From Alphaproteobacteria bacterium (GTDB lineage: Bacteria > Pseudomonadota > Alphaproteobacteria > Caulobacterales > Maricaulaceae), in the NCBI GenBank assembly GCA_018222865.1, contig JAAEZM010000006.1:124001-188000 (forward strand): a stretch of 64,000 nucleotides of DNA, written 5' to 3'. The notes beneath the pieces are model-generated. The model saw only the letters and a program-made list of their open reading frames with translations, was not told the DNA's origin and did no database searches. Positions 23,857 to 39,851 of the stretch are shown here, in pieces; positions within the stretch are counted from its first letter, which is position 1; the number at the start of each line of letters is the position of its first letter. The translations under genes and the position numbers were made by a program.

Positions 23857-23904
23857 TTGCAAAATGCGAGGCGGAGCGGCTCTTTTTGCAATCTGCAATC
23901 CGCA
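23857..23904. promoter_or_regulatory. Activator dyads upstream of the polysaccharide export operon
   Basis: TTGC-AAAAT-GCGA at 23857-23869 and TTGC-AATCT-GCAA at 23886-23898, the latter overlapping TGC-AATCC-GCA to 23904. The same dyad recurs at 32.8, 34.5 and 39.8 kb. They lie 71-118 bp before a -24/-12 promoter, the normal position for sigma-54 enhancers. Confidence 0.68.
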
Positions 23905-23926
23905 TCCTGCGACACACTCCACGGAG

Positions 23927-23974: not shown

Positions 23975-23990
23975 TGGCCCCTCGCTTGCG
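23975..23990 (+). promoter_or_regulatory. Sigma-54 (-24/-12) promoter of the polysaccharide export operon
   Basis: TGGCCCC-TCGC-TTGCG against TGGCACG-N4-TTGCA: GG and GC are correctly spaced (10 bases between) with 13 bases to the AGGAGG of the first gene. Confidence 0.72.
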
Positions 23991-24014: not shown

Positions 24015-24248
24015 ATGCGACATGATTTCAAACTGTCTTCTTCTCAATTGCGCACATTCGATCGTGCGCTGTTCAGCTTTCTTCAAGGCGCTTTCGAACG
24101 CCCGGAGTCGCGCAGTGTTTTTGTCGAGGCGCGGCCGGATGGCGAAGGCACGGTCAAGACGATTGATTGCCGTTGCCCGGTGATGGCCCGCGAGCTGGCT
24201 GCCGAGATCGCCGAGGCGCTGTCGCGCCGCGCTGCGCGCGGGTTTTAA
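24015..24248 (+). CDS. Small hypothetical protein leading the polysaccharide operon
   Basis: 77 residues, mixed charge, no signal peptide (FSFLQGAFERPESRSVFVEA, RELAAEIAEALSRRAARGF). A perfect AGGAGG lies six bases before the ATG, and the next gene starts four bases after its stop, so it is very likely real and co-transcribed. Family not recognised. Confidence 0.65.
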   Translation: MRHDFKLSSSQLRTFDRALFSFLQGAFERPESRSVFVEARPDGEGTVKTIDCRCPVMARELAAEIAEALSRRAARGF

Positions 24249-24252
24249 AGTC

Positions 24253-25485
24253 ATGCGCTGCGGTCTGGTCTCCATACTCGCCCTTGCCCTGGCCTCCTGC
24301 GCGACCGCGTTTGAGGAGCCTCGCAATACGGCCGATATGACCTATGAGGGTTATACGAGCGCCCGGCGGCCGATGAGCGGTATGCGCGAAGTGCCGCTGA
24401 GCGGGCAGGGTCGTTATGGCGATCTGGCCCGCTGCGCCGACGCCGACCTGCCGATGTCAGCGCCTGAAAGCGTAGCCTTTGCTGCCAGTGCCGCCATGCA
24501 GACCCCGCCGCTTTCACCGGGCGATATGCTACGGCTGACCGTGCCGGCCGGTGAAGCCTTTGAGGGCAATTATGTCGTCGCGCCCAATGGTACGCTGACC
24601 ATTCCTCATCTCCGCCCGATCCGCGCGGCCGGCTTCCGCGTCGAAGTGGTGGAGGCTCTGGTGGCCCGGATGTTTGTGGAAGAGGGGATTTATCGCGCGG
24701 GCTTCTTGCAGCTTGATCTTGATGTTGCCCAGTGGGCGCCGGTCCAGGTGCATGTGTCCGGAGCGGTTTTCCAGCCCGGCGATTTGATGCTGAATGACCG
24801 CAATCCCGAGCTCGTACAGGGCTCGCGCGTGGAAGCGCAAGGCGATATCGCCTCGGGCCGGACGCTGGTCTCGGCCTTGTCATCAGCAGCGGGTCTGCGC
24901 CCCGATGCTGATGTCCGACATGTGGTTCTCGTTCGGGATGGGCAACGGCAAATCTTCGATATGTCCGGAGCCTTCACGGGGCAGCGCATGGCCGACCCGA
25001 TGCTGGCCACGGGCGACCAGATCCATATTCCCTCGCGCGGGTGTTTCCAGGAGGCCTTGGCGCGTCCGAGCCGTATCACTGTGCCGGGCATTCGCGTCTT
25101 CATGTCCAATCTGACGACGCCTGCCTCGTCCAATTCCCAGTCCGCCATCAATAGCCAGAGCACCAGCCTGCCCTATGGCACCCGCTTTCTGCAGGGGCTG
25201 GTTGCAGCCAATTGCGTAGGCGGGACCCAGGCGACGAATGCTGATCGCTGGGCGGTGCTGATCTCGCGCAATCCGATCACGGGTGAAAGCGAAGTCATTG
25301 CCCGTTCGATCGAGGGGCTGGTCCGCCGCGCCGATCGCGACACCTTCAATCCCATCCTTCTGCCGGGTGATGGCATCGCTTGCTACGACTCGCACGTGAC
25401 CAATCTGCGCGATGTGATCAGCGCATTCAGCGGGGTGCTGACGCCCGCGATCAACCTGACCATTCTCAGCGGAGCTGCACGATGA
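24253..25485 (+). CDS. Polysaccharide export outer-membrane lipoprotein, Wza/HfsD type
   Basis: 410 residues. The lipoprotein signal ends in ALASC; a Poly_export domain (about 90-180: LSPGDMLRLTVPAGEAF, YVVAPNGTLTIPHL) and SLBB-like segments (VQVHVSGAVFQPGDLM, LVSALSSAAGLRPDADVRHV) follow. It should form the outer-membrane exit channel for the polysaccharide. The stop overlaps the start of the chain-length gene (ATGA), so the two partners are coupled. Comparable to HfsD in Caulobacter holdfast export. Confidence 0.88.
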   Translation: MRCGLVSILALALASCATAFEEPRNTADMTYEGYTSARRPMSGMREVPLSGQGRYGDLARCADADLPMSAPESVAFAASAAMQTPPLSPGDMLRLTVPAGEAFEGNYVVAPNGTLTIPHLRPIRAAGFRVEVVEALVARMFVEEGIYRAGFLQLDLDVAQWAPVQVHVSGAVFQPGDLMLNDRNPELVQGSRVEAQGDIASGRTLVSALSSAAGLRPDADVRHVVLVRDGQRQIFDMSGAFTGQRMADPMLATGDQIHIPSRGCFQEALARPSRITVPGIRVFMSNLTTPASSNSQSAINSQSTSLPYGTRFLQGLVAANCVGGTQATNADRWAVLISRNPITGESEVIARSIEGLVRRADRDTFNPILLPGDGIACYDSHVTNLRDVISAFSGVLTPAINLTILSGAAR

Positions 25486-26951
25486 AGCGTCCGCTGACCC
25501 AGAACCCGCCAGAGCCGCCGCCTTACCCTCGCAAAAGCGCAATGACGCGCGAGGCGGCTTATGAGACCGCCCGGAAATCGCTCCTCGGGCGGATCATCAT
25601 TGGCTCTGGCGGGCCCCGTCGCTGGTTTCGATACATGCTGGTCTTGATGATCGGTGCCCTTTTCTTCGGCAGTGTCGCCGCGGCCTATTATCTCCTCTCC
25701 CCGCGGACCTATGTCAGCGGCTTCACCTTGACCCTGCCGGGGTCCGGCGCGGGCGCGAGCGTCAATCTGACCGATCTGGGCCAGGCGACATCGGCGACGT
25801 CCTCGGCATTTTCCAGTGCTTCGCTGAGCCCCACCGAGAATTACAAACGCCTCCTGCAATCGGACCGCGTGCGCGGAACGGCAGCAGAGGCTCTCAACGT
25901 TCAGTCGCGGGAATTCGCTGGTATTCGCGTGCGCCTGGTCGATCAAACGCCGCTCATCTATGTGCGTCTCACCGAGAGTGATCCTGATCTCGCCTACGCT
26001 TCCGCTAACGCGCTGCTGGCGGCATTTCAGGCCAATCTCGATGAATTGCGCCAGGAGGAGCTGGATGCACGTGACCAGGCCTATCGCCAAAGCCTGGCCG
26101 GCTATGAGCTCAATGTCGCTGCGACCCGACAGGCTGTCATAGCCTATCAGGCAGAGAATGGCCTGATCTCCATCGATCAGTATCAAACACTGGTGACACA
26201 GACCGATGAGCTCGAACGCACTTTGGAGGAAACCCTCGATCGCGCCCGCGCCCTGGGCAATCGCTCCTCGCGTCTGGGCGAACTGATCGAATTGCCTGAA
26301 GAAGTTGCGGCGCGCGTGCTGATCCTGCGTGGGGACCAGGTCTTTGAAACCCTGCGTGAGCAATTGGCCGAGAGTGCAGCCCAGATTGCCAGCTTCCAGC
26401 AAATGTACGGCCCGAACCATCCCGATATGCGTGCAGAAACCGAGCGCCATGCCGGCCTGGTCGAGGCGCTCAATTCACGCGGCGAGGCCCTGCTGGGCGT
26501 GGCCGGTTACGGCATGTTGCATCTCGCCGAGATCAATATCGATGGCGAGCGTGCCGAGCTTCTCCGTCAGGTCGTCGACCTGTCGGCGCAGGCTGAAGGC
26601 GCGCGTGCAGAAGCGCGTTCGCTGCAGGACCGTCTCCTGCGCAATGAGCAGCGGGTTGAAGACCTCGCACCCATTGCAGCCCGGCTGGATTCGCTGCTAC
26701 GCGAGCATCAAGTCGCGGAGACGGTTTTCGCCTCGGCTCTGGCGCGCCTGGATACATCCCGGGCCGATGTTTTTGCTTCCTACCCACTGGCGCAATTGCT
26801 GGAGCCGCCGGCGCGTCCGGAAGGCCCGTCCTCACCGTCGAAGAAGATTGCTGCCTTGGCGGCGTTCGGCGGATTTTTCCTCTACTGCATGGGAGTCTTG
26901 CTGCTATGGCTGCGCCTGCCGCTGATCCGCGCTCTGTGGAAGATTATATAA
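25482..26951 (+). CDS. Wzz/GumC-type chain-length and co-export protein
   Basis: 489 residues: an N-terminal membrane span (MLVLMIGALFFGSVAAAYYL), a Wzz domain, a long coiled-coil periplasmic region (about 180-400, with heptad-like LDELRQEELDARDQAYRQSL) and a C-terminal span (LAAFGGFFLYCMGVLLLWL). There is no Walker-type tyrosine-kinase domain, so any kinase must be elsewhere. The true start is ATG 25482, overlapping the wza-like stop by four bases. HfsA-like role inferred. Confidence 0.85.
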   Translation: MKRPLTQNPPEPPPYPRKSAMTREAAYETARKSLLGRIIIGSGGPRRWFRYMLVLMIGALFFGSVAAAYYLLSPRTYVSGFTLTLPGSGAGASVNLTDLGQATSATSSAFSSASLSPTENYKRLLQSDRVRGTAAEALNVQSREFAGIRVRLVDQTPLIYVRLTESDPDLAYASANALLAAFQANLDELRQEELDARDQAYRQSLAGYELNVAATRQAVIAYQAENGLISIDQYQTLVTQTDELERTLEETLDRARALGNRSSRLGELIELPEEVAARVLILRGDQVFETLREQLAESAAQIASFQQMYGPNHPDMRAETERHAGLVEALNSRGEALLGVAGYGMLHLAEINIDGERAELLRQVVDLSAQAEGARAEARSLQDRLLRNEQRVEDLAPIAARLDSLLREHQVAETVFASALARLDTSRADVFASYPLAQLLEPPARPEGPSSPSKKIAALAAFGGFFLYCMGVLLLWLRLPLIRALWKII

Positions 26952-28207
26952 TCTCCGTCGCGCTCATAAGCACCTGGCCGGTCTATTTCCTCGGCGGGCT
27001 TTACGTGCTGGGGCCGGTGCTCGGCGTCTGCCTGACCGCGATCGTCGTCGTTCGCAAATATATCCGGACACCGCAAACCAAACGTCCCGAACCACCCGCC
27101 ATTCCGATTGGCGTCTGGTTCTGGATTGGCGGTATGGGGTTGATGCAGGTCGCGCTCCTGGGCGGACATTGGTCCTACGAGCTCTCGACCGGTCAGACGA
27201 TCAAATCGACCATTGGCTGGGCCAAGGGCTGGGCACTTTTCGCCATGTTCACCCTGGCTGGCGCTTGTCTGGATATCCGCTTTGCAACGGTGATCCGCGC
27301 TGCCGGTATTACGGCGCTGATCTCCCTTCTGCTGACACCCATTCTGTATGTCGCCCCGATGGTCGGTCTGCCCGAGATACTCTTCATATCTCCGCTAAAG
27401 GCCGTCGGCGGCCCGGGGCCGGAGTTTTTCGCGGTGCAGCTATATTCCATGGACCCGGCGGATGGTCTGCCGCGCTGGCGCTATTTTACCCCATGGTCGC
27501 CAGCCGCAGCGTTGATCGGAAATCTTTATCTGATCCTGGCCATTGAGGATGAGCGCAAGATCTGGCGGATCATCGGCATTGTCTCTGCCCTGACAATTAT
27601 CGTCCTGTCGAAGTCGCGACTCGGGCTCGTCACCGCGGTTCTCGTCTGGCCCACCGCCTTCGGGGTCTCGCAGCTTCGCCGGAGTGTGCTCTGGCTCGGT
27701 GCGGCTGTGCCGGTCTTCTTCGCAGGCCTGTTCTCACCCGTCATCCTCGCCCAGCTCGGGGCCGCCTATGAAGGGTTTCGCGGCATGCGGGCCAACTCCA
27801 CGCGCGTTCGCGAAGCGCTGGGCCGGATTGCTGTCGATCGCTGGTGGAATGAGGCCCCCGTCTGGGGGCACGGCGTTGTCGAGCGCGGCCCGCATTATGT
27901 CGAATACATGCCGATCGGCAGCCACCATACCTGGTTTGGCCTCCTCTTCGTGAAAGGCATTGTCGGCGTCGCTGCGCTGGTTATCCCGCTCCTATGGAGC
28001 CTGTTGGAGTTTGCCCTGCTGGCTTTATCGAGCCGCATTGGCCGTGCCGCCTTCGCGATCACCATCCTCCTGGTTCTCTTCACGGTTGGCGAGAACCTGG
28101 AAATCCTGACCTACCTCTTCTGGCCTGGCCTCCTCGTTATGGGGATCGCCATGCGTGAAGCCGCAGAGAAACGGTCTGCCATCCTTGCTGAAGCGAGACA
28201 GTCATGA
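26906..28207 (+). CDS. O-antigen ligase/polymerase-like membrane protein
   Basis: 433 residues with about ten membrane spans and the long soluble loop (about 270-345, including HGVVERGPHYVEYMPIGSHH) typical of Wzy/WaaL-type enzymes; the histidine pair before TWFGLLFVKG matches the family's H-containing loop end. It polymerises or transfers lipid-linked glycan at the periplasmic face. Overlaps the preceding gene by 46 bases and the next by four. Confidence 0.78.
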   Translation: MAAPAADPRSVEDYIISVALISTWPVYFLGGLYVLGPVLGVCLTAIVVVRKYIRTPQTKRPEPPAIPIGVWFWIGGMGLMQVALLGGHWSYELSTGQTIKSTIGWAKGWALFAMFTLAGACLDIRFATVIRAAGITALISLLLTPILYVAPMVGLPEILFISPLKAVGGPGPEFFAVQLYSMDPADGLPRWRYFTPWSPAAALIGNLYLILAIEDERKIWRIIGIVSALTIIVLSKSRLGLVTAVLVWPTAFGVSQLRRSVLWLGAAVPVFFAGLFSPVILAQLGAAYEGFRGMRANSTRVREALGRIAVDRWWNEAPVWGHGVVERGPHYVEYMPIGSHHTWFGLLFVKGIVGVAALVIPLLWSLLEFALLALSSRIGRAAFAITILLVLFTVGENLEILTYLFWPGLLVMGIAMREAAEKRSAILAEARQS

Positions 28208-29397
28208 TCACACCGCTGCGTCCCCTTCTATTCGTTCCCCGGTATTGGCCAGGCATTGGCGGCTCAGAACTGCATTCGCGGCGCCTCGCGCAGGAGCTTG
28301 CCTTGCACTGCGAAGTGAATGTGGCGCGCACCTGTTCGACAGAGACTATTGCGACGGACTACGCTTTCGCCGAGGCAAAGCCCGCCCGGCAAATGGATGG
28401 CCGGATACCGGTCTCAACGATTGCCCCGCCTGGAGCCTGGCAGCCCGCCTTGAGGAGCTTGGCCCGGCTGGCTGAAACGTCGCGTCCCGCTCGCTTCCTA
28501 TATGGGCGCGCTGCCCGTGCATGCGCGAAGGCCAGCCTGCGGCCGCTGACAGAGGGAGCGGATGTCGTCCACGGAATTTACAACGGATTTACGCCGGGAG
28601 TGGAGGCCTTGCGATCCTTTGGCAAACCCTTTGTATGGACACCGCTCGCACACACCACCAAGCCGACCGGAACCGCATGGTCCAGCCCGGGTTTCAAACG
28701 CCTCTATCGCAAGGCAGATGCCTTGATTGCGATGACCGAATATGAGCGCGAATGGCTGATTGCCCAGGGCGCTCAATCGTCTCGCGTCCATGTCTGCCCC
28801 ATGGCTGCTCTCTTTGAAGAAGGCGTGCCCGATCCGGCCGGCTTTCGGACGCGATACGGGATTGGCGACAAGCCGATGGTTTTATTCCTCGGTCGGACGG
28901 CTGACTATAAGGGTTATCGTCAATTGCTTGATGCCGCCCCGGCCATATGGCGGCGACACCGCGATGTACACATTGTTTTCGCTGGACCGGTGACCGATGC
29001 CGCATCCGAGGCCTTTGCCGCATGCAAGGACCCGCGCCTGATCATTGCCGGGCTGGTGTCAGGCGAGGAGAAAAAGTCAGCGCTTGCAGCCTGCTCCATG
29101 CTCTGCCTGCCCTCGACCGAGGAAAGCCTGGGCGTGGTCTATCTTGAAGCCTGGTCTTTCGAGAAACCGGTAATCGCGGCGGATATTCCGGTCATGCGTT
29201 CGGTGATTGACGCGGGCGCAGATGGCCTTCTTGTCCCGCAGGAGGCAGCGCCGATTGCGCAGGCAATTCTTCAGCTGCTGGACAATCCTCGTCGGGCGGA
29301 AGCCATGGGTGCACGCGGCGCTCTAAAAGTTGATGCCGAATATAACTGGGCCCGCATCGCGGCCGATCATCTGAAGATCTACAACGCGGTTCTCTAA
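28204..29397 (+). CDS. Glycosyltransferase family 4
   Basis: 397 residues with two Rossmann-like halves. The N-terminus shows the acceptor-side glycine loop PRYWPGIGGSELHSRRLAQE; the C-terminal half has FLGRTADYKGYRQLLDA, the donor-binding PSTEESLGVVYLEAWSFEKP with the EX7E pattern, and VIAADIPVMRSVI. A retaining cytoplasmic sugar transferase that extends the lipid-linked repeat unit. Last gene before a strong terminator. Confidence 0.9.
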   Translation: MITPLRPLLFVPRYWPGIGGSELHSRRLAQELALHCEVNVARTCSTETIATDYAFAEAKPARQMDGRIPVSTIAPPGAWQPALRSLARLAETSRPARFLYGRAARACAKASLRPLTEGADVVHGIYNGFTPGVEALRSFGKPFVWTPLAHTTKPTGTAWSSPGFKRLYRKADALIAMTEYEREWLIAQGAQSSRVHVCPMAALFEEGVPDPAGFRTRYGIGDKPMVLFLGRTADYKGYRQLLDAAPAIWRRHRDVHIVFAGPVTDAASEAFAACKDPRLIIAGLVSGEEKKSALAACSMLCLPSTEESLGVVYLEAWSFEKPVIAADIPVMRSVIDAGADGLLVPQEAAPIAQAILQLLDNPRRAEAMGARGALKVDAEYNWARIAADHLKIYNAVL

Positions 29398-29475: not shown

Positions 29476-30468
29476 CTAGGCAGAACCAGCGCGCGCCAGA
29501 ACCGCACCTTCAAGACGCCCATAGAGGTGTGTGGGCATCAATCGCAGGGCCAGGGCGGCCAGAAGGGTCACGCTGGTCTTCAGGGGTTCACGGATCAGGA
29601 CATTGGGAGCGCGCTTGAGTGCGGCAATCGCAAGGTCGAAAGCCAGTCCGCGATCGCGCATGCGAACGGCCCGCCGAGCGAGATAACGAAGCTGGAAGGC
29701 TTCCGCTGTGGCTTCCCAGCGATGAGCGAAGTCCGGGGCGAGATCGCGAACCTTGTCGCGCACATACAGCCAGCTTTCGAACTGCTTGACGACATTCGCC
29801 GATAGCCCGCCCGCATTGACCCGATAAAGGGTTAGCGGCCCTGGGATACCCTCAAACTTCCAAGACGTGGAAAGGGCGATCTGCAGCCAGCAATCGATAT
29901 CTTCAGACTGCCGCAGGCTTTCATCGAACCAGACGTCTTCACCGGGATGGTCGGGCGATGGGCGCGCTATTTCCGTGAAGACTTGCCTCCGGATCACCGG
30001 TGTGGAGCCATTACTGACCGGGTTGCGCAAGAATATGTCCTGCGGCTCGATATTTCGGAGCTTCGGTGTCTGATCGATACCGAGATCATGCCCGTCATCA
30101 TCGATGAGATGCGCACCGGAAAAGCTGACACCTATGTCCGGATTGTTATGCAGGTGATCGAGGTGACGCGCGAGCTTGTCCAGGTGCCAGAGGTCATCGG
30201 AATCCAGGAAGGCGATAATATCAGCGCGTGCATAACGAATGCCTGTGTTGCGCGCGCCTGCGAGCCCGCGATTCTTTTGGCTGATAATTCTGACGCGCGG
30301 ATCGACATATTCGCGGCAGATATCGATCGAGCGATCCGTGCCGCCATCATCAATGATGAGAAGCTCGAAATCCTCGAAGCTTTGGTTGAGGACGCTGTCG
30401 ATCGCGGCTCTGACAAAGCGCTCGACATTATAGACCGGCATGACAACGGAGATTGCGGGCAGGATCAT
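29476..30468 (-). CDS. Glycosyltransferase family 2 (first)
   Basis: 330 residues, GT-A fold: ISVVMPVYNVERFVRAAIDS at the N-terminus, LIIDDGGTDRS, the metal-binding FLDSDDLWH and an acceptor-side ED motif (RQSEDIDCWLQ). The C-terminal 60 residues contain a hydrophobic segment. An inverting transferase using a nucleotide sugar. Last gene of the reverse operon; its start overlaps the upstream gene's stop by four bases. Confidence 0.88.
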   Translation of the reverse strand: MILPAISVVMPVYNVERFVRAAIDSVLNQSFEDFELLIIDDGGTDRSIDICREYVDPRVRIISQKNRGLAGARNTGIRYARADIIAFLDSDDLWHLDKLARHLDHLHNNPDIGVSFSGAHLIDDDGHDLGIDQTPKLRNIEPQDIFLRNPVSNGSTPVIRRQVFTEIARPSPDHPGEDVWFDESLRQSEDIDCWLQIALSTSWKFEGIPGPLTLYRVNAGGLSANVVKQFESWLYVRDKVRDLAPDFAHRWEATAEAFQLRYLARRAVRMRDRGLAFDLAIAALKRAPNVLIREPLKTSVTLLAALALRLMPTHLYGRLEGAVLARAGSA

Positions 30469-31400
30469 CGGACATACTCCTTGATGGACGGAATGGGCAG
30501 AAGCAGCGCCAGGGCTGCGGCGAGCGTCAGGCCGACGCGGCGAGGCATGCGTACGAAAATCAGCGGATCTTTAATCAGGGCACGGGTGATAAAGGCGAGA
30601 GCTGTCGCCGGGAGGTTGCCGCGCAGTGCCCGGCGGGCCTGATTGCGGTGAAAATCTGCCACAAGCGCCTTCATGCGCGGTCGAAGCAATTCCGGAGCGA
30701 TCGCGTTCGCCCGGGCGATGAAACGGCGCCAGCTCTTTGCGGTGCGTCCAAGATCGGAGGACCGGGAGACCCCGCCCATGCGATAGTGAAGCAGAACCCG
30801 GTCAATCCCTTCGACGGTCCATGGAGACTGCGCCGCTGCGCGAAAGAGCAAGTCCTGGTCTTCGATATAGGCCATGCGTTCATCGAACCCGCCCAATCGC
30901 TCCAGTAAGGCAGCGCGCGCTATGATGTTAGAGGTGGTGCAAACGGGGTTCTCCGAGAGCAGATCCTCAGCGTTCAGCACATCATGATGCGGCGAGGGCT
31001 CGGTCTGGCTTGCTCCCTCTTCGCCAAGAAAGGCGAGGCGAGTAAAGACAATCCCGGTTTGTGGATTGCGTCCAAAATGCTCAAGACATGTCGAGAGACG
31101 TTCGTGATGCCAGATATCATCGGCATCGAGAAAGGCGATAAGGCGGCAGTTGGCATGAGCGATACCGGTATTGCGAGCGGCCGCCGGACCGGCATTTTCC
31201 TGTGAGACAAGGCGCACGCGCGTATCAGAGGTAGCAATAACCTCTGCCAGTTCACGGGATCCGTCCGTGGAACCATCATCGACGAGGATCAACTCCCAGT
31301 AACGGCAGGTCTGAGCTTGTACAGACAGGACAGATTTCAGCAGCGTCTCATGAGCGTTGAAAACGGGCATGACGACGGAAATGATGGGGGGTGAGGTCAT
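30465..31400 (-). CDS. Glycosyltransferase family 2 (second)
   Basis: 311 residues, GT-A fold: IISVVMPVFNAHETLLKSVL, LVDDGSTDGSRELA, FLDADDIWH and YIEDQDLLFRAA. Paralogous to the next gene, consistent with duplication and use of different sugars or linkages. Start placed at ATG 31400, which overlaps the flippase stop (ATGA); the longer open frame to 31841 is a shadow of the flippase gene. Confidence 0.88.
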   Translation of the reverse strand: MTSPPIISVVMPVFNAHETLLKSVLSVQAQTCRYWELILVDDGSTDGSRELAEVIATSDTRVRLVSQENAGPAAARNTGIAHANCRLIAFLDADDIWHHERLSTCLEHFGRNPQTGIVFTRLAFLGEEGASQTEPSPHHDVLNAEDLLSENPVCTTSNIIARAALLERLGGFDERMAYIEDQDLLFRAAAQSPWTVEGIDRVLLHYRMGGVSRSSDLGRTAKSWRRFIARANAIAPELLRPRMKALVADFHRNQARRALRGNLPATALAFITRALIKDPLIFVRMPRRVGLTLAAALALLLPIPSIKEYVR

Positions 31401-32674
31401 GATTTTACTCCTGAAGGATGCGTGCGCTGCGTCGGCGTTTCGCAAAGCGAAACGGTCAGCGGATAAAGGGAAAGGGCCGTCAGCGTGGCACTGAGCGTCA
31501 GAGCGATAACCGCGGCCTGAAGGCCAATCTGCGCGCCCAAAAGCAGGGAGCCGAGGCAGATCAAGGTCATTGCCGAGACCGCGAAGAGTTCGAGGCGCGG
31601 CTGGCCGTTTGCGCGTAGCAGGAGGGCACAGCCATCGGACAGCAATTTTGCCGGACCGCTCAGGCACAAGATGGCGATGAGCGGTATTGCATGGCTCCAC
31701 TCGGCGCCGAAAATAATCGGGACATAGATGGGTACGGCAGCGGCCTGCAGCAGGAAAAGACCAGCGAGCGGCGCACCCGCCGTGCGCATGCCCTTGTGGA
31801 AGGCGCTGAGCGCTGACCCTGTCCGCCGTACGCTTTCGCAAAGGTTCGGATAGAAGGCGCCGTTAAAGGCTGTCGACAAGGCCGAGGACAGTCCGAGCCC
31901 GGCATTGAAGGCGAAATAATAAATCCCCAGCAGTTCTAGCCCGCAGACCGCGCCGATGATCAGCTTGTCGACATGCATGCGCATGGCGGTGAGGAGCTCT
32001 GATCCGAGTACCGGTGCGGCGAAACCGAGCAGTTTCCTTGGTGCCGCAAGCTTGGCCGTACGGTCAGGTCGCCACGGTCGTCCCCACATGACGCCGACCA
32101 GCCAGATCGGCGCTGTGACGAGCTTGGGCAAGACGATCGCCCAGGGGCCGAAGCCGCTGAGCGCCAATACGGCCGTGAGCAGATTGTCCGTGGATACCTG
32201 GACTGCATTCACCGTCGCAAGCCGGCGCATATTCTGGGTGCGTTGAAGCATCCATCCATGTGCGACACCGGGCGGCATAATCAGATAGACGCCGGCAAGG
32301 CAGGCGATCATCCAGCCGATATCAGCCGAACCGGTCTGGCGAGCGATGATCACGGCGATGCCACATTGAGCTATCGCCAGGACAAGACCCGTCAGCCAGC
32401 CGGCCAGATGTGCGGTTCGGATAAGGCCTGGCAGTTCCTTATCGCTTGCCGCGACAACAGCTGCCCCGACACCGTTTTGATTGAAGACGCGAACGAGTTC
32501 GAAAACAGTGATCGCGACCGCTGCGGCGCCGAACTCAATCGGGGTCAGCGTACGCGCCAGGGCAATCGCGGCGAAGAGGCGCGTAACCCGCGAGACCGCT
32601 TCGCCTGAGGCGAGCCAGCCGATATTCTTCAGCAGGGTATGACGCGCGAGCATGTTTCGGACCGTGTGGATCAT
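31397..32674 (-). CDS. Polysaccharide flippase (Wzx/MATE-like)
   Basis: 425 residues with about twelve membrane spans and the N-terminal pattern of polysaccharide transporters (NIGWLASGEAVSRVTRLFAAIALAR begins the first span region). It should flip the lipid-linked repeat unit across the inner membrane, like HfsF. First gene of the three-gene reverse operon; a -24/-12 promoter candidate is 40 bases upstream. Confidence 0.85.
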   Translation of the reverse strand: MIHTVRNMLARHTLLKNIGWLASGEAVSRVTRLFAAIALARTLTPIEFGAAAVAITVFELVRVFNQNGVGAAVVAASDKELPGLIRTAHLAGWLTGLVLAIAQCGIAVIIARQTGSADIGWMIACLAGVYLIMPPGVAHGWMLQRTQNMRRLATVNAVQVSTDNLLTAVLALSGFGPWAIVLPKLVTAPIWLVGVMWGRPWRPDRTAKLAAPRKLLGFAAPVLGSELLTAMRMHVDKLIIGAVCGLELLGIYYFAFNAGLGLSSALSTAFNGAFYPNLCESVRRTGSALSAFHKGMRTAGAPLAGLFLLQAAAVPIYVPIIFGAEWSHAIPLIAILCLSGPAKLLSDGCALLLRANGQPRLELFAVSAMTLICLGSLLLGAQIGLQAAVIALTLSATLTALSLYPLTVSLCETPTQRTHPSGVKS

Positions 32675-32713
32675 GAGCGTTTCCTTTCGCTAATCCACAC
32701 ACTTCAAGTCCGG

Positions 32714-32729
32714 CGCCAATGTCGCGCCA
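32714..32729 (-). promoter_or_regulatory. Sigma-54 (-24/-12) promoter candidate of the flippase operon
   Basis: Reverse strand TGGCGCG-ACAT-TGGCG against TGGCACG-N4-TTGCA: GG/GC spacing correct, three mismatches. A start near 32702 gives a leader of roughly 28 bases. Confidence 0.58.
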
Positions 32730-32796: not shown

Positions 32797-32845
32797 CCGC
32801 ATTTTGCAATTCACCCCTCGCAATCCGAAGCATGGCCTAACGCAA
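32797..32845. promoter_or_regulatory. Three activator dyads between the flippase operon and the sugar-transferase gene
   Basis: Reverse strand TTGC-AAAAT-GCGG (32797-32809), TTGC-GAGGG-GTGA (32811-32823) and TTGC-GTTAG-GCCA (32833-32845), each one mismatch from TTGC-N5-GCGA. They lie 68-116 bp upstream of the reverse -24/-12 element. They might also serve the forward gene at 32978, for which I see no clear -24/-12 element. The rest of the 303-base intergenic region holds no gene. Confidence 0.55.
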
Positions 32846-32977
32846 ATCCGGAATTTGGGTTGGGGTGGGTGCTGGGTGGTGGAGAAATATATTAATAAAA
32901 ACAAGTTGTTGAATTTATTCTTGAGGCGCTGGACCCGTCTCTGAAGCTTTCAGGGCAACCCAATATGGAGTTGTTCG

Positions 32978-34438
32978 ATGGTTGATTTATCTCTGAATCC
33001 AAATGTCCGGAGCCTTGCACCGGTCGCGCGCTTCAAACCCAAGGCGGTGGTGGATAATACCGGTGCGTCCCAGCCTGTCGGACCGAGCGTAGATGTGCTT
33101 GGCCTGCCGCTCCTGGCCATGCGCCGCGCGGATGCGGTCAAGGCATTGGTCGGACGTGTGGTCCGCGGGCACAAGACCCGCATTGCCTTCGTCAATGCGC
33201 ATTGCGTAAATGTCGCCGCGTCCGACTGGCAATACCAGCAAGCGCTGCAATCGTGCGACGCGGTACTTCCTGACGGGATCGGCATTGAAATCGCCAGCCG
33301 TCTGGGCGGTGAACCGATCAAAGACGATCTCAACGGCACGGATCTCTTCTTTCCCCTGTGTAAAGCGCTCGCCGGGGCCGGCAAGTCGGTCTTCTTCCTG
33401 GGCGGCCGCCCCGGCATAGCCGATGCGACAGCAGCGGCCGCAGCGGCCAAAACACCCGGGCTGAAAATCGCCGGGAGCTGCCATGGCTATTTCGGGCCAC
33501 AGGATGAAGACGCGATCATCGAGAAGATCAATTCCCTGCAGCCTGATGTCGTATTCGTAGCGATGGGCGTACCGGCCCAGGATACCTGGCTGGCGCGGGT
33601 GGCTGGCCGGCTCGACGCATCCCTGCTCGCCGGCGTTGGCGGACTGTTTGACTTTGTATCAGGCGCAACAAAACGCGCACCATCCTGGCTGCGCCATGCC
33701 CGCCTGGAATGGACCTACCGGCTCATTCAGGAACCCAAGCGGATGTGGCGTCGCTATCTGGTGGGCAATATCGCCTTCCTGGGCCGCGCACTCGGCTATG
33801 GCTGGGCCAAGCGCCGGGAGGCGCGCCGCAACTGGATCAGCGCCGGGCTGAAACGCGCTCTGGATATCACCGTCGCAGCGGCCGCCGTAGCTGCCCTATC
33901 GCCATTGCTCCTCCTTACGACGCTGGCGATCAGGCTGGAGAGCAAGGGTTCGATACTTTTCCGGCAGGTTCGCGTTGGCGAAAATGGCGAGACTTTCGAA
34001 ATGCTCAAATTCCGGTCCATGTTCATGGATGCCGAAGCACGCCTCGAAGACTTGCTGGCGGCAAATGACCGCAATGATGGCGTGACGTTCAAGCTCAAGC
34101 ATGATCCGCGCGTGACACGTGTCGGGCGGATCATCCGCAAATACTCAATCGACGAGTTGCCTCAGCTTTTCAATGTGCTGCGTGGCGAGATGTCTCTGGT
34201 TGGTCCGCGTCCCGCCTTGCCGAGGGAGGTGGCGAATTATTCGAAAGTCGATTTGCGACGCCTCAAGGGCAAGCCGGGTATTACAGGCATATGGCAGGTC
34301 AGCGGTCGCGCCGATATTCCCTTCCAGCGCATGGTCGAGATGGATGTTGATTATCTCAATAACCGATCGCTCATCACCGATATCATCATCCTCGCTCGCA
34401 CACCCCTTGTGGTGATCATGGCGAAAGGCGCTTACTAG
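32978..34438 (+). CDS. Fusion of WecG/TagA-type glycosyltransferase (GT26) and polyprenyl-phosphate sugar transferase
   Basis: 486 residues in two domains. Residues about 38-235 are a GT26 domain (FVNAHCVNVAASD, VLPDGIGIEIASRLGG, VFVAMGVPAQDTWLAR). Residues about 285-486 are a bacterial sugar transferase (PF02397-like): a membrane hairpin (ALDITVAAAAVAALSPLLLL), LKFRSMFMDAEARL, DELPQLFNVLRGEMSLVGPR and GITGIWQVSGRADI. The second domain should load the first hexose-1-phosphate on undecaprenyl phosphate (HfsE/PssY role) and the first should add the next sugar, so one protein could make a lipid-linked disaccharide. Start at ATG 32978, GGAG upstream. Confidence 0.9.
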   Translation: MVDLSLNPNVRSLAPVARFKPKAVVDNTGASQPVGPSVDVLGLPLLAMRRADAVKALVGRVVRGHKTRIAFVNAHCVNVAASDWQYQQALQSCDAVLPDGIGIEIASRLGGEPIKDDLNGTDLFFPLCKALAGAGKSVFFLGGRPGIADATAAAAAAKTPGLKIAGSCHGYFGPQDEDAIIEKINSLQPDVVFVAMGVPAQDTWLARVAGRLDASLLAGVGGLFDFVSGATKRAPSWLRHARLEWTYRLIQEPKRMWRRYLVGNIAFLGRALGYGWAKRREARRNWISAGLKRALDITVAAAAVAALSPLLLLTTLAIRLESKGSILFRQVRVGENGETFEMLKFRSMFMDAEARLEDLLAANDRNDGVTFKLKHDPRVTRVGRIIRKYSIDELPQLFNVLRGEMSLVGPRPALPREVANYSKVDLRRLKGKPGITGIWQVSGRADIPFQRMVEMDVDYLNNRSLITDIIILARTPLVVIMAKGAY

Positions 34439-34463: not shown

Positions 34464-34517
34464 TTGCAATATGCGACGAATGAGCGTTGCATATTGCGAT
34501 GCTTTTGCGGATTGCGA
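34464..34517. promoter_or_regulatory. Three perfect activator dyads upstream of the kinase/activator operon
   Basis: TTGC-AATAT-GCGA (34464-34476), TTGC-ATATT-GCGA (34487-34499) and TTGC-GGATT-GCGA (34505-34517), spaced 23 and 18 bp. They lie 66-119 bp before the -24/-12 promoter at 34583, the usual place for sigma-54 enhancers. Confidence 0.75.
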
Positions 34518-34582
34518 ATATCATGGCTCAAGAGGGCCGCGCTAAGGTTCTGAAAACTCGGGCTTTCGGAGGGCGTCCAGCC

Positions 34583-34598
34583 TGGGCCGGGGTTTGCA
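34583..34598 (+). promoter_or_regulatory. Sigma-54 (-24/-12) promoter of the kinase/activator operon
   Basis: TGGGCCG-GGGT-TTGCA against TGGCACG-N4-TTGCA: only two of twelve fixed positions differ and GG/GC spacing is exact. Predicted start near 34610, with the ribosome site GAGGGAGAG at 34615-34623. Confidence 0.75.
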
Positions 34599-34628
34599 GT
34601 CCATCCCTTCATGCGAGGGAGAGACATA

Positions 34629-36965
34629 ATGAGCAAACCATCCGGCAAGACGATTATCGCGCCTTCAAAGAGCGGTTCATTGGGCATGGGTGAGCATGTC
34701 GATGAGGACCCGGAAGCGGCGCTCCACGCGGCGATCCTCCAGGCGGCGCTCGACTGCATCGTCATCATCGATAGCGATGGTGTGATTGTCGAATTCAACG
34801 AAGCGGCGGAAAACACTTTCGGGCATCGGCGCGAGGATGTGCTGGGTCAGCCCATGGCAGAGCTGATCATCCCTGAAGCCTTGCGCGGCGCACATGATGC
34901 CGGTTTCGAGAAATATCTCAGCACGGGCCAGCACGCTGTCCTTGGAAAACGGATTGAAGTCCCCGCGCTTCACGCGAGCGGGCGGGAATTGCTTGTCGAG
35001 CTGGCGATCACGCCGGTTCATCTCACCGATCAGACCTATTTCACGGCCTATCTTCGAGACATCACCGAGCGTAAGGCGGATGAAGAGGAGCTCAAACGCT
35101 CGCGCCAACGCTATCGCGATCTTTTCGAGCGGTCCGGCGATGCCATCTTCATCCATACGCTCGAGGGCGAGATCGTCGACGCCAATAAACGCGCTGAAGA
35201 ACTTACGGGCTGGGATCGTAAAGCCCTGATCGGCACTCATCTTTCACGCCTGCACCCGGAAAGCGATCAGGCGAAATGCAAGGCCGCGATTGAGGCGGTT
35301 CAGTCAGCGGGCGAAGCCCGGCTCGAGGTCCGCTTCATTCACCGTTCCGGGGTTCAGATACCGACCGAGGTCAATTCCCGCTCCGTCGATACAGATGATC
35401 GTACGCTGGTTCATGGCGTGGTGCGCGATGTCTCGGCGCGCGCCGCGACGGTGGCAGAGCTGCGCACAGCGAAGGCGGAAGCCGAGCGCGCGAGCGCAGC
35501 GAAAACCGAATTCCTCGCCAATATGAGCCATGAAATGCGCACGCCTCTCAACGGCGTCATCGGTCCGCTTGGCCTTATTGCCCGCGAAGGGCTCTCCGAA
35601 AACACGGCGCAAATGATCGACCTCGCAGAGCGTTCGGCGGAAAGTCTCCTGACCTTGATCGATGATGTGCTCGATATCAGCCATATCGAGTCCGGGCAGG
35701 TTGATCTGGTGGAGGAAGTCTATTCGCCCAATGACTTGCTGGGCCAGGTCAGGGAGATTTTCTCCAATTCAGCGGCCGATAAGGGCATTGCGCTGGATGT
35801 CGCGTCCCTGCCGAAAGACTTGCGCTTGCTGGGCGATCCCGGCCGTGTTCGTCAGATCCTTTTCAATCTGGTCGGCAATGCCATCAAATTCACCGATCAG
35901 GGCGGTGTGGTGCTGGAAGCTGACCTGGCAGACGAGAATGGCTCGTCGATCGTCAGGTTTCACACGATCGATACAGGTATCGGCATTGCCGAAGACGTTC
36001 TGCCCAAGCTCTTTTCGCGCTTTGAACAGGGGCTGGCCGCGCCCTCCTCGGTGAGTGAAGGTGTTGGTCTCGGCCTCGCGATCACCCGTGAACTTGTTGA
36101 GCTTATGGGCGGGAAAATCACGGCTATGAGCCAGCTTGGGGCAGGCAGCCGCTTCTCCGTGACTTTGCCCGCAAACGTGCAAAACAGCGCTCAAAGCAAT
36201 GCCGGCAAAACCTCCCAGCCATTACAGCACCTTCACGGGCGTATCTTGCTGGCTGAGGATAGCGAAACCAATGCGGCAGTGGTTGCCAGCATGCTCGCCA
36301 AGCTTGGCCTGGAGCCGGAAATCGTCTGCGACGGTGCGGCAGCCGTCCAAGCCGTTGAGAGCGACGCCTATGACCTCATCATCATGGATGTCGGCATGCC
36401 GGTCATGGATGGGCTGGAGGCCTCGCGCCTGATCCGGTCGACAGGCCATGCGACACCGATCATTGCTCTAACCGCCCATGCCTTGCCGGAGAATCGCGAG
36501 CAGACCCGGGCGGCGGGGATGAATGGTTTCCTCACCAAACCCATTCGTTTGAAGGATCTGTCACGGGAATTGGAGAAATGGTTACCGCGCGCCGAAGCTG
36601 CGCATCATGCAGTGCTCAGCGCCGCGCATATCGATGAGCAATGGAACGGCGATGTCGCCGGGCATGCTTTCGTCCTGCGCATCTTCGTTGGAGAGCTCCA
36701 GAAGCGGCTCGACCGCATTGCGGAACATCTGCAGGCGGGGGAACTGGCAAAACTTCAGCACGAGGCCCATGCCGTTAAGGGCGGAGCCAGTAATATCGGT
36801 GCAGAAGCCCTGGCGCACGCGGCCTCGGCGCTGGAACAAGCCAGTCTGGGATCGGGCCCGGATGGTTTGATCGACCGGCTGGTCGCGGATGTGAAGCAGT
36901 GTTCCGCTGCGTTTGTCGAAGCCGCGGAAAAAAGCCTGGCGCAAAGTGAAGGGAGAGGCGGATGA
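34629..36965 (+). CDS. Hybrid sensor histidine kinase (PAS-PAS-HisKA-HATPase-REC-HPt)
   Basis: 778 residues, no membrane span, so a cytoplasmic sensor. Two PAS domains (about 30-145 and 155-270; FNEAAENTFGHRREDVLG and FIHTLEGEIVDANKRAEEL), H-box ANMSHEMRTPLNG with His301, N-box NLVGNAIKFTD, G-boxes DTGIGI and GVGLGLAI, a receiver with Asp587 (LIIMDVGMPVMDG) and an HPt domain with His714 (HAVKGGASNIG). All phosphorelay stations are present. I use ATG 34629 behind GAGGGAGAG; 34611 is in frame but lies at the predicted transcript start. The stop overlaps the activator start by four bases, so the activator is the likely phosphate acceptor. Confidence 0.92.
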   Translation: MSKPSGKTIIAPSKSGSLGMGEHVDEDPEAALHAAILQAALDCIVIIDSDGVIVEFNEAAENTFGHRREDVLGQPMAELIIPEALRGAHDAGFEKYLSTGQHAVLGKRIEVPALHASGRELLVELAITPVHLTDQTYFTAYLRDITERKADEEELKRSRQRYRDLFERSGDAIFIHTLEGEIVDANKRAEELTGWDRKALIGTHLSRLHPESDQAKCKAAIEAVQSAGEARLEVRFIHRSGVQIPTEVNSRSVDTDDRTLVHGVVRDVSARAATVAELRTAKAEAERASAAKTEFLANMSHEMRTPLNGVIGPLGLIAREGLSENTAQMIDLAERSAESLLTLIDDVLDISHIESGQVDLVEEVYSPNDLLGQVREIFSNSAADKGIALDVASLPKDLRLLGDPGRVRQILFNLVGNAIKFTDQGGVVLEADLADENGSSIVRFHTIDTGIGIAEDVLPKLFSRFEQGLAAPSSVSEGVGLGLAITRELVELMGGKITAMSQLGAGSRFSVTLPANVQNSAQSNAGKTSQPLQHLHGRILLAEDSETNAAVVASMLAKLGLEPEIVCDGAAAVQAVESDAYDLIIMDVGMPVMDGLEASRLIRSTGHATPIIALTAHALPENREQTRAAGMNGFLTKPIRLKDLSRELEKWLPRAEAAHHAVLSAAHIDEQWNGDVAGHAFVLRIFVGELQKRLDRIAEHLQAGELAKLQHEAHAVKGGASNIGAEALAHAASALEQASLGSGPDGLIDRLVADVKQCSAAFVEAAEKSLAQSEGRGG

Positions 36966-38395
36966 GTATAGGCCGTGTTCTGATCATTGAGGACAGTCCG
37001 TCACTGGCTCGAACCTATGAGGCCCAGCTTAAACGGGACGCTGCGGCGATCGAGATCGTGGAAGACGGCGCCGGGGGCGAGCGGGCTATGGGGGCGGGCC
37101 GTCCCGACTGCATCCTGCTTGATTTGGGCCTGCCCGACGCCAACGGGATGGACTTGCTGCGCTCCTGGCGCGCCGCGGAAATCTCGACACCGGTTGTCGT
37201 CATCACGGCCAATGGCTCCATCAATACAGCCATCGACGCCATGCGCGAGGGGGCCACGGATTTCCTGGTAAAGCCCTTTGGCGCTGAGCGCCTTGTCACG
37301 ACAGTCAAGAATGCGGTCGAGAAATCCAAGCTTGAGAAAGTCGTCAAAGCCTTTGAACAGAGCAAGCCGAAGGCGCAATTCGCTGAATTCGTGGGGTCAT
37401 CCCTGCCGATGCAGGCGGTCTACCGGGTCCTGGAATCAGCCGCGCCCTCCAATGCGGGCGTCTTCATCACCGGTGAAACCGGAACCGGCAAGGAATTGGC
37501 CGCGCGCGCCGTGCATACATCGAGTGCGAGGGCTGGCCGCGCCTTCATCGCCGTCAATTGCGGCGCCATTCCCAAAGATCTGATCGAGAGCGAACTCTTT
37601 GGCCATGTCAAAGGGGCGTTTACCGGTGCCACGACGGACCGGGCCGGGGCTGCCGAACTGGCCAATGGCGGCACGCTCTTTCTCGATGAAATCGGCGAAA
37701 TGCCCATCGATCTTCAGCCCAAATTGCTGCGCTTCCTGCAAACGGGGACTTATGCGCGCGTCGGTGACAGCCGGATCCGGCAAACCGATATCCGTATCGT
37801 CGCGGCCACCAATCGCGACCCATGGGGCGCTGTGAGGGCTGGGCGATTGCGTGAGGATTTGTATTTCCGGCTGAATGTGATCCCGGTTGAACTCCCGCCG
37901 CTGCGCGATCGAGCCGGTGATATCCTGATGCTGGCCGATGCCTTTCTCGCTCGCTATGCGGAAGAGGAAGGGCGCGCTGATCTCAAATTCGCGGACGATG
38001 CCCGCCAGGCGCTGTTGCAGCATTATTGGCCCGGCAATGTCCGTGAATTGGAAAATCTCGTTCGGCGATGCGTGGTTCTTGCCGAGGGCGATGAAATCGC
38101 GGCCTCTGATTTGTCACTGACCCAGGGGTTTGCGGCGGCTGCGCCGACACACTCTGCGCCGGATCCTGTACAGCCTGCTGCCCTGGCGCCTGCACCCTCG
38201 GTCGCGGCGCCTTATCCGCCTGTAAACACAGCCCCCGTCGCTGGCGGTATAGAACCGCTTTGGGTGGTCGAGAAGCGTACGATCGAGCATGCGATTGCGC
38301 TGTGCGGTGACAATATCACCGAGGCCTCCAAACAGCTCGAAATTGCCCCGTCCACCATCTATCGCAAACGCGAGCAATGGGCTGAGAAGACCTGA
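36962..38395 (+). CDS. Sigma-54-dependent response regulator (REC-AAA+-Fis HTH)
   Basis: 477 residues. Receiver domain with Asp54 ([13 protein letters not shown]), AAA+ domain with Walker A GETGTGKE, the sigma-54 contact motif GAFTGA (residues 218-223), [13 protein letters not shown] (Walker B) and an arginine-finger region, a proline/alanine-rich linker (about 385-425), then a C-terminal Fis-type HTH ([20 protein letters not shown]). Couples phosphorylation to ATP-driven opening of sigma-54 promoters. Translationally coupled to the kinase. LuxO/NtrC-like architecture; its likely sites are the TTGC-N5-GCGA dyads. Confidence 0.95.
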
Positions 38396-38401
38396 CCGGT
38401 C

Positions 38402-39715
38402 TTACTCGGCGGCCGGGGCATAGCTGGCGAGGCGGGCGCGTTCGCGAGCATTGACAATGCCCAGCCGGTCGCGGTGTTTGGCGATTGAACGCCGGGCGAT
38501 TTCAACACCCTCCGCGCACAGCGCCTGCGAGATCGCGCCATCGGACATCTCTCCGGGAACAACCTCATTGGCAATCATTTTTTCAATGCGCGCGCGGACA
38601 GCAGCCGAGGCTGTCGCGGCATTCTCCCCAGCCTCACTTACAGCCGTCGAAAAGAAGCTTCGCAATGGCAAGACGCCCCGCGGTGTTTCGATATGCTTAT
38701 GGGCCACCGCCCGGCTAACCGTTGATTCATGAAGCTCGAGCCGGGTCGCGATTTCCCGCATGGTGAGCGGGATGAGGGCCTCCGTGCCCTCGCTCATGAA
38801 CCGGTGCTGAAAAGCGATAGCCAGCCGAGCGACGCGCAACAGGGTGTCGCCGCGCTGGCGCAATGCCTGCTTTAGCCAACGCGCTTCCTCATGCTTGCCC
38901 TGAAGGAAGGATCTGGCCTTGCCCGCCAGAGCCGGATTGCGGTGCCAGCCGCGATAAGCGGGTTCCAGGGCAATGCTCGTCGTGGGATCCCAGCTCAAGG
39001 CGACAGCCCATTCACCGCTTTCAGAGCGCTCGGCCCGCAGATCCGGAATGATCTCGATCGCGTCGGCCGTTTCGAATCCGTAGCCGGGCTGAAGGTCGAG
39101 CGTTCTTAAATGGGCAATCATGGTTTTGAGTTCAGTCTCTGAAACACCGCAGCGTCTGGCGAACGCATGTGCCGGCTCTGTTGCCAAGGCGTGCAGGTTA
39201 TCAAGCAAGGCCTGCCAGCGCGGACAGGCGGCGCTTTGGGGGTCGAGCTGGAGTGCAAAGCATTCAATGATTGAACGCGCTCCAACGCCTGCCGGTTCGA
39301 AGGACTGGACCAGAGCCAGCGCATCGTCTGCGCCCCTTGCATCGGCCAGGTGGGCCCAGTCGTCTGCGTTTAGTCGGCCGCTGGGTTCAATGTGCTCGAT
39401 AATCCGGAGCGCCAGCGCCCGGATGTGCGGGGTGGTTCGGGTCAGCGCAAGCTGGTGTTTGAGATGATCGGAGAGATTGAGCCTGGCCGGTGTGGTGGCG
39501 GTCCAGTCAGCCAGCGCGGCGGAATTGCTGCGATTGCGGCTCAGACTGGAGCGCTCGGCGATCAGCGGATTGGCTTCGCAGATAGCCATGATTTCCTCTT
39601 CCAGCGCCTCACCGGAGAGCTGAAGCAAGAACATTGTTCGCTGCATTTGCGGCGACAGGGTCTGGGTTTGGCTTTGTTTCTGAAAAACGTTCAGGCGCTG
39701 TGCGTAACTGCTCAT
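38402..39715 (-). CDS. rpoN: RNA polymerase sigma-54 factor, divergent paralogue
   Basis: 437 residues, shorter than most RpoN proteins (about 480-510). Region I is Gln-rich as expected (QTLSPQMQRTMFLLQLSGEA), followed by a core-binding middle and the C-terminal RpoN box, here ARRSIAKHR in place of the usual ARRTVAKYR. MREIATRLELHESTVSRAV is the preceding HTH. Start at ATG 39715 with GGAGG five bases upstream. It lies tail to tail with the activator gene (6 bases between). Placement and divergence suggest a second, pathway-dedicated RpoN rather than the housekeeping copy. Confidence 0.9.
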   Translation of the reverse strand: MSSYAQRLNVFQKQSQTQTLSPQMQRTMFLLQLSGEALEEEIMAICEANPLIAERSSLSRNRSNSAALADWTATTPARLNLSDHLKHQLALTRTTPHIRALALRIIEHIEPSGRLNADDWAHLADARGADDALALVQSFEPAGVGARSIIECFALQLDPQSAACPRWQALLDNLHALATEPAHAFARRCGVSETELKTMIAHLRTLDLQPGYGFETADAIEIIPDLRAERSESGEWAVALSWDPTTSIALEPAYRGWHRNPALAGKARSFLQGKHEEARWLKQALRQRGDTLLRVARLAIAFQHRFMSEGTEALIPLTMREIATRLELHESTVSRAVAHKHIETPRGVLPLRSFFSTAVSEAGENAATASAAVRARIEKMIANEVVPGEMSDGAISQALCAEGVEIARRSIAKHRDRLGIVNARERARLASYAPAAE

Positions 39716-39816
39716 GGGAACCTCCATGACCAGTATCACTGCAGGGGGGTGCAATGGGAAGGGGTAGTAAAAACAACGGGCTAAGTCATGTGTGAAGCAA
39801 AGCGCGAGGACCGGGA

Positions 39817-39851
39817 TTGCGCTTTGCGACGGCTTTTATTGCCACTTGCGA
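39817..39851. promoter_or_regulatory. Two perfect activator dyads upstream of the rpoN paralogue
   Basis: TTGC-GCTTT-GCGA (39817-39829) and TTGC-CACTT-GCGA (39839-39851), 22 bp apart, 102-136 bp before the rpoN start codon. I found no good -24/-12 element on the reverse strand here, so control could be through another sigma factor, positive or negative. Confidence 0.6.

Follow-up and report, generated by a model that had tools for sequence, protein, structure and literature searches.

The 64,000-nt stretch of alphaproteobacterial DNA analysed here (the window, within which all coordinates are positions; it spans 124001-188000 of contig C11 in a source genome of 3.01 Mb in 31 contigs, labelled G000) carries a kinase/activator operon, a second gene for sigma-54 (rpoN2) and a cluster of polysaccharide genes, and a short dyad recurs upstream of all three. 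The plus-strand operon encodes a hybrid histidine kinase of 778 amino acids (aa) with the domain order PAS-PAS-HisKA-HATPase-REC-HPt (34629..36965), and a response regulator of 477 aa with the recognition helix PSTIYRK (36962..38395), whose REC-AAA+-Fis architecture, proposed in an earlier reading of the letters alone (the sequence-only reading), is seen in its domain annotation. A ribosome site had also been reported just past the predicted kinase start, and correctly: a good ribosome site precedes ATG 34629, where the gene begins. The first ATG lies upstream, at 34611, but it is the later start that is kept in relatives, whose alignment does not support ATG 34611. Three dyads lie upstream of the operon (34464..34517), matching the form first described, TTGC-N5-GCGA, exactly at 34464, 34487 and 34505 and aligning at similar spacing in the relatives G008, G014 and G004 (G-labels denote genomes, L-labels fetched loci). 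The near-consensus -24/-12 promoter noted behind them is present as a GG-N10-GC element of the sigma-54 type at 34584..34597 on the plus strand. Past the activator gene lies rpoN2 (38402..39715, minus strand; 437 aa, RpoN box ARRSIAKHR), which had been described as divergent and in fact runs convergent with the activator gene.

As first written, the dyad is no more frequent in the window than chance would give. There are nine copies of TTGC-N5-GCGA where 5.93 are expected on average, nine or more being reached in 16 of 100 shuffles, and the pattern was ruled out as a genome-wide marker for being too loose. Nor is it confined to intergenic DNA near the cluster, as three of the nine matches fall elsewhere, at 1272, at 38079 (within the activator gene) and at 59024 (within a CsgG-type gene). 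The further copies reported at 23.86, 32.8 and 39.8 kb stand in part, with exact matches at 23857, 39817 and 39839 and none at 32.8 kb, where the site at 32797 reads CCGCATTTTGCAA. The best cluster dyads have a tighter form in common, TYGCANNNTGCRA, from which the site at 32797 differs by one mismatch; it aligns with near dyads (one to two mismatches) in three relatives. Two further sites had been overlooked, a perfect copy of the tighter form at 23886 and a near match at 23900, and of the three dyads upstream of the operon those at 34464 and 34487 are perfect and that at 34505 has one mismatch. Two sequences in the cluster, TTGCAATATGCGA and TTGCATATTGCGA, are each one base from the Vibrio enhancer, or upstream activating sequence (UAS), of the regulator LuxO, given as TTGCAWWWTGCAA in the available parts of two papers (PMC10162802, PMC11443567).

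Perfect copies of TYGCANNNTGCRA number 14 in the genome, against 8 for the reversed control; a looser form, TTGCNNNNTGCGA, gave 48 against 15 and was rejected as a marker, being still loose. Four of the 14 fall in the cluster (23857, 23886, 34464 and 34487), i.e. in 16.1 kb of 3,011 kb, for which the binomial p of 8e-7 is too favourable because these same sites served to define the form. With up to one mismatch, nine dyads lie in four upstream stretches (three before wza, one between wzx and the sugar transferase gene, three before the kinase gene and two before rpoN2) where the rate in 173.8 kb from elsewhere in that genome predicts 0.144 in all. This background is whole DNA, intergenic and coding together; it leaves out L070 (19.9 kb, one perfect dyad), and six of the nine stretches kept (L071-L076) were picked for holding a looser match. 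In its refined form, then, the dyad is commoner in these intergenic stretches than elsewhere. A chance origin of the dyads, as random matches in AT-richer intergenic DNA, would agree with the unremarkable window count of the original form and could draw on the use of whole DNA instead of intergenic DNA alone as background; set against it are the excess of the refined form and the conservation of the dyad positions in relatives, which contradicts it, and we consider it hardly credible. Each of the 10 perfect dyads found outside the cluster overlaps an open reading frame (ORF) of at least 70 codons. Those at C5:103965 and C23:370159 are close to the start of a longer ORF and mark possible targets, and C2:221863, the only perfect non-cluster dyad with an all-A/T centre, lies inside a 411-codon ORF and was set aside.

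The likeness to LuxO extends to the activator itself. Among curated models LuxO fits it best (552 bits), followed by NtrC (397), and the solved structure closest to it by sequence is LuxO 5ep0. A phylogenetic tree was built from 55 of the 110 proteins gathered, without the six later-fetched LuxO-like genes L201-L206. In it the activator falls in a clade of 22 members with support of 100/100, apart from 33 others that include NtrC-type regulators; the clade also holds a Vibrio protein and proteins from metagenome-assembled genomes of Rhodospirillales and Bradyrhizobiaceae (one each). The motif PST[IV]YRK in the recognition helix is found in 22 of the 110 proteins, exactly the 22 clade members, and four of the six later-fetched genes end in PSTIYRK, with PSTLYRK in L205 and PCTIYRR in L204. 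Alanine scanning of LuxO, in the part of the report available (PMC11407668), identified Ser423, Ile425, Tyr426, Arg427, Lys428 and Leu429 as critical helix residues; in a by-eye alignment that uses the numbering of that paper, the first five of these six match the activator and the sixth (Leu) is Arg. By its sequence the activator is thus best classified as a member of the LuxO clade, outside the LuxO quorum-sensing equivalog.

Elements of the sigma-54 type stand downstream of the dyads at each cluster promoter. In alignments of four species (G000, G008, G014 and G004), with column shuffles as control, the GG-N10-GC element of the kinase operon is kept in four of four (shuffle mean 0.000), as is that of the wza operon at 23976..23989 on the plus strand (0.005). 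Variant sigma-54-like elements with the form GG-N10-GA are found before wzx (32704..32717, minus strand) and before the sugar transferase gene (32931..32944, plus strand), each again kept in all four species (0.010), such that GA replaces GC at -12 on both sides of this divergent promoter region. The -24 elements of the cluster in G000 read TGGCCC, TGGGCC, TGGCGC and TGGACC. If transcription is assumed to start 12 bp past the -12 element, the dyads are centred at -139, -116 and -98 for the kinase operon, -138, -109 and -95 for wza, -111 for wzx and -153 for the sugar transferase gene, i.e. 95-153 bp upstream of the inferred starts. The LuxO sites at the qrr genes of V. fluvialis are placed at -89 to -120 in the accessible text of PMC11443567.

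LuxO-like genes are found, at E of 6.2e-122 or better, in 19 of the 149 genomes searched in all. Immediately ahead of the activator gene there is a kinase-like match in 19 of the 20 regions that comprise these relatives and the window; in G010 the match is behind it. Around the LuxO-like genes there are 41 perfect TYGCANNNTGCRA dyads in 659 kb (reversed control, 2), with at least one in 18 of the 20 regions. The comparison set is the surroundings of 77 other NtrC-type genes, taken from 80 loci among the matches listed after removal of three LuxO-like ones, and has 4 in 1,224 kb. The density of perfect dyads near LuxO-like genes is about 19-fold that of this background (binomial p 6e-15, for regions that, coming from related species, are not independent). 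G177 and L201-L206 were found later and lie outside the 659 kb; G177 holds five perfect dyads. Beyond the group, L205 of Paroceanicella profunda (Rhodobacterales) has two perfect dyads, at 7931 and 7961, followed by GG-N10-GC at 8005, which precede a run of genes with two kinase-type genes and the LuxO-like gene.

From the similarity of enhancer and recognition helix, the conserved promoters and the co-occurrence among relatives, a LuxO/SypG-type phosphorelay probably controls what is likely to be a Wzx/Wzy-type exopolysaccharide cluster, together with its own operon; the sigma-54 regulon for polysaccharide genes that the sequence-only reading had proposed for this activator is upheld to that extent. 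Judging from domains, the PAS-PAS hybrid kinase would relay phosphate, by way of the REC and HPt domains that it carries itself, to the activator, which in its phosphorylated form would bind the paired or triple TYGCANNNTGCRA dyads some 95-150 bp upstream of the sigma-54 promoters. It would thereby activate wza with the genes that follow, wzx and the initiating sugar transferase gene and, in a positive feedback, the kinase/activator operon itself. For its sigma-54 the circuit may use RpoN2 of the cluster, alone or together with the other sigma-54, RpoN1, as co-occurrence would suggest.

Several observations weigh against this picture. The 552 bits of the activator lie below the cut-off of 800 for the LuxO equivalog NF041946, although the protein L106 of Vibrio sp. 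HI00D65 likewise scores just 592, and LuxO Gly409, which is also critical according to the available part of PMC11407668, aligns by eye with Asp in the activator. The GG-N10-GA elements depart from the sigma-54 consensus. The relatives G033 and G083 have LuxO-like genes and no perfect dyad, and none is found in eight of nine distant LuxO-like loci (L105, L106, L107, L201-L204 and L206, with L205 as the ninth); the dyad was accordingly ruled out as a mark of every LuxO-like locus. In the Azospirillum plasmid loci L201 and L203, the LuxO-like gene and a large response-regulator/kinase gene are flanked by lactate-use genes on one side and citrate synthase on the other. Dyad and activator are therefore firmly linked within this group but thinly outside it. 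The dyad-poor distant loci would also be expected if another regulator bound the dyads and the LuxO-like protein acted elsewhere, but that account must set aside the likeness of the dyads to the LuxO UAS, the shared recognition helix, the co-occurrence among relatives and the UAS-like distance to sigma-54 promoters, and we regard it as improbable.

Other LuxO-like loci offer side observations. The setting of L201 and L203 perhaps reflects a different job for the same activator family. On plasmid p1 of Azospirillum argentinense (L206), the LuxO-like gene shares its stretch with wza, wzc, wzy-like and sugar-transferase genes, and a near dyad at 20956 and an TTGGCAGGAAGCTTGCT element lie before wza. 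In a second LuxO-like clade (L053 and L066 of G074, L063 and L064 of G044, and L061 of G073), perfect dyads lie upstream of a gene of 474-492 codons, which in G074 (L053) carries an outer-membrane efflux protein domain.

In the polysaccharide cluster, three LuxO-type dyads lie upstream of wza (23857..23912; 23857 and 23886 perfect, 23900 with one mismatch). The first gene behind the wza promoter is a small conserved ORF of 77 aa (24015..24248, plus strand), which has a strong ribosome site and no Pfam match; it is kept in G008, G014 and G004, and small ORFs occupy the same place in G141, G133, G137 and G039. It is followed on the plus strand by genes for a wza-like polysaccharide export protein (24253..25485; Pfam Poly_export and SLBB_2), a Wzc-like chain-length determinant (25380..26951; NCBIfam TIGR03007 below cut-off, no Pfam match), a Wzy/ligase-like protein (26906..28207; Pfam Wzy_C at 27.4 bits, slightly below the cut-off of 31.7) and a group 1 glycosyltransferase (28204..29397). 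Two family-2 glycosyltransferases (29476..31841) and a Wzx-like flippase (31397..32674) are encoded on the minus strand, and the one-mismatch dyad at 32797..32809 separates wzx from the plus-strand gene for the initiating enzyme, a WecG-type glycosyltransferase fused to a bacterial sugar transferase (32978..34438). Counterparts of wza, wzc, the wzy-like gene, the two family-2 glycosyltransferases, wzx, the WecG-sugar transferase fusion, the kinase and the activator are present in G000, G008, G014, G004, G039 (rearranged), G141, G133 and G137, and the shorter contig of G177 has all of these except wza. An Rfam search of 20000-45000, which covers described RNA families, matched a tRNA and no Qrr RNA. 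Models for PEP-CTERM systems were tried on the cluster proteins and rejected, all matches being under cut-off; the activator scores 374 bits against PrsR model TIGR02915, for which the cut-off is 502.6.

The second sigma-54 gene is, as had been recognised, a full RpoN paralogue beside the activator, with AID, core-binding and DNA-binding domains plus the RpoN box; its product scores 310.7 against TIGR02395 (cut-off 277.35), and a count of rpoN genes gives two in the genome. Among the 149 genomes, an intact second rpoN is found in G000, G004, G008, G014 and G039, always in this cluster with the activator (G085, a split gene, and G093, a fragment, were left out of the count), and G177 brings the total to six genomes, always inside the cluster. 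The claim that the cluster has its own sigma factor gains from this distribution, and loses from three relatives, G141, G133 and G137, which have the same cluster and dyads and one rpoN; activator and dyads can presumably function without RpoN2, to judge from these three genomes.

These relatives also favour the possibility that the housekeeping RpoN1 transcribes the whole regulon and that RpoN2 is an accessory, redundant or decaying passenger copy, an account we take seriously without favouring it. It would fit the state of G010, where the rpoN2 beside the LuxO-like gene (G010:C130:49306-50318) is broken (internal stops, two separate matches) and the activator intact, and the faster divergence of RpoN2, which is 62% identical between G000 and G008 as compared with 84% for RpoN1 and 90% for the activator (60 and 47% for RpoN2 of G000 with G014 and G004). 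A passenger copy is harder to square with the confinement of intact rpoN2 to the cluster in all six genomes, and with a DNA-binding domain kept with common replacements: the RpoN box is [AS]RR[SC][IV]AKHR in six of six RpoN2 and ARRTVAKYR in four of four RpoN1. The ratio of nonsynonymous to synonymous substitution rates (dN/dS) of RpoN2 is 0.13-0.23 in three usable same-genus pairs with saturated dS (pairs with G014 were dropped for an upstream stop taken in, as was G039 from the RpoN1 set for a wrong ORF), which again speaks against decay. So does the arrangement in the sister genus (G039 and G177), where rpoN2 has its own dyads and a common CCCGGCC-N6-TTGCTC, i.e. GG-N10-GC; self-amplification through rpoN2 is plausible there because both precede the gene.

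In the window, self-amplification is supported for one part of the circuit and not for the other. The kinase/activator operon has its own dyads and promoter, as proposed, whereas rpoN2 has two weak dyads (39817..39851, one mismatch each, aligned but degenerate in relatives) and, between these and the gene, neither GG-N10-GC nor GG-N10-GA conserved in the four species aligned, which leaves self-amplification via rpoN2 unsupported here. This lack of a conserved element would be expected if the dyads exerted negative or non-sigma-54 control of rpoN2, or if they belonged to the galE-like gene (named by eye from sequence) that starts divergently beyond the same dyad interval in G008, G014 and G004. 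The joint presence of dyads and GG-N10-GC before rpoN2 in G039 and G177 argues the other way, and both variants are possible if on the unlikely side.

For comparison with the cluster promoters, the canonical sigma-54 element TGGCACG-N4-TTGCW has a single perfect copy in the genome, at 59866-59851 on the minus strand, before a curlin-like/CsgG operon. With up to two mismatches it is kept in 11 of the 11 same-genus loci found, including species that lack both rpoN2 and the activator (13 same-genus genomes were searched; the incomplete G007 and G012 gave no match). The difference between the cluster promoters and this canonical one, presumably served by RpoN1, is suggestive only, because the one-rpoN relatives G141, G133 and G137 also have untypical elements. 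GG-N10-GA as a mark of RpoN2 was likewise weakened as a candidate: all three of these relatives show TTGAA before wzx (by eye) and have GG-N10-GC before the sugar transferase gene. A bolder reading takes the locus as a self-contained sigma-54 subsystem made up of the LuxO-clade activator, enhancers of the LuxO type and an RpoN2 reserved for it, with a changed box that fits the unusual promoters. This subsystem would be insulated from RpoN1 (serving TGGCACG-N4-TTGCA) and in the sister genus would also amplify its own sigma factor; we regard the idea as a tentative and rather doubtful extension of the phosphorelay reading.

The genes behind the canonical element, curlin-like by eye (59395-59811, minus strand) and then with a CsgG domain (58407-59411, minus strand), resemble HfaA and HfaB of the holdfast anchor; HfaA resembles CsgA and HfaB resembles CsgG (PMC6707917, available part). 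Because the element is kept in all same-genus loci found, sigma-54 may control holdfast anchoring in this genus. This HfaA/HfaB-like operon is 20 kb away, and no dyad within one mismatch was found from 59030 to the window end.

No report of such a circuit was found among the papers listed in searches of the open-licence literature, subscription papers lying outside the search; parts of it resemble known systems. PrsK-PrsR-RpoN controls PEP-CTERM/floc genes and, like the system described here, pairs a dedicated kinase with a sigma-54 activator at a polysaccharide locus. Unlike PrsR, the present activator falls under the PrsR cut-off, and the kinase has REC and HPt domains.

The LuxU-LuxO-qrr system of Vibrio, as described in the available parts of PMC11443567, PMC11407668 and PMC524169, shares with this locus the activator clade, the recognition helix, the enhancer sequence and its distance to the sigma-54 promoter. 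It differs in that the likely targets here are protein-coding operons, that kinase and HPt are one protein, and that no Qrr was detected by Rfam. LuxO homologues outside Vibrio, including Bradyrhizobium, were listed already in 2004 (PMC524169). The LuxO enhancer and its activator are familiar chiefly from Vibrio quorum sensing. Since a near-identical enhancer is kept with this activator type beside exopolysaccharide genes in relatives of the present bacterium, the family may have served polysaccharide control earlier and more widely than control of Qrr RNAs. For the sigma factor, the nearest parallel is Cereibacter sphaeroides, whose RpoN1-4 have each been studied with their own activator (PMC11999139, available part); both are cases of an alphaproteobacterial RpoN paralogue with a particular activator, the Cereibacter copies serving flagellar, nif and ctrA control and the present one standing in an exopolysaccharide cluster with a LuxO-clade activator. 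The same source, in its accessible part, leaves open how one sigma-54 paralogue becomes committed to a single activator, and a cluster-borne sigma-54 that is present, absent or broken by lineage offers a natural series on this question.

Most likely, the circuit works like SypF-SypG with LuxO-type enhancers. At the syp locus of Vibrio (Aliivibrio) fischeri, according to the available part of PMC10162802, an HPt-bearing hybrid kinase acts on a LuxO-related sigma-54 activator and this on a polysaccharide locus; here, too, a polysaccharide locus with promoters of the sigma-54 type contains a hybrid kinase with HPt next to a LuxO-related activator, and phosphotransfer is predicted from the domains. 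The UAS of SypG is given in the same source as TTCTCANNNTGMDWN, whereas the dyads here are LuxO-like, and unlike the SypF-SypG system, the present one has a second rpoN within the cluster and is found in an alphaproteobacterium.

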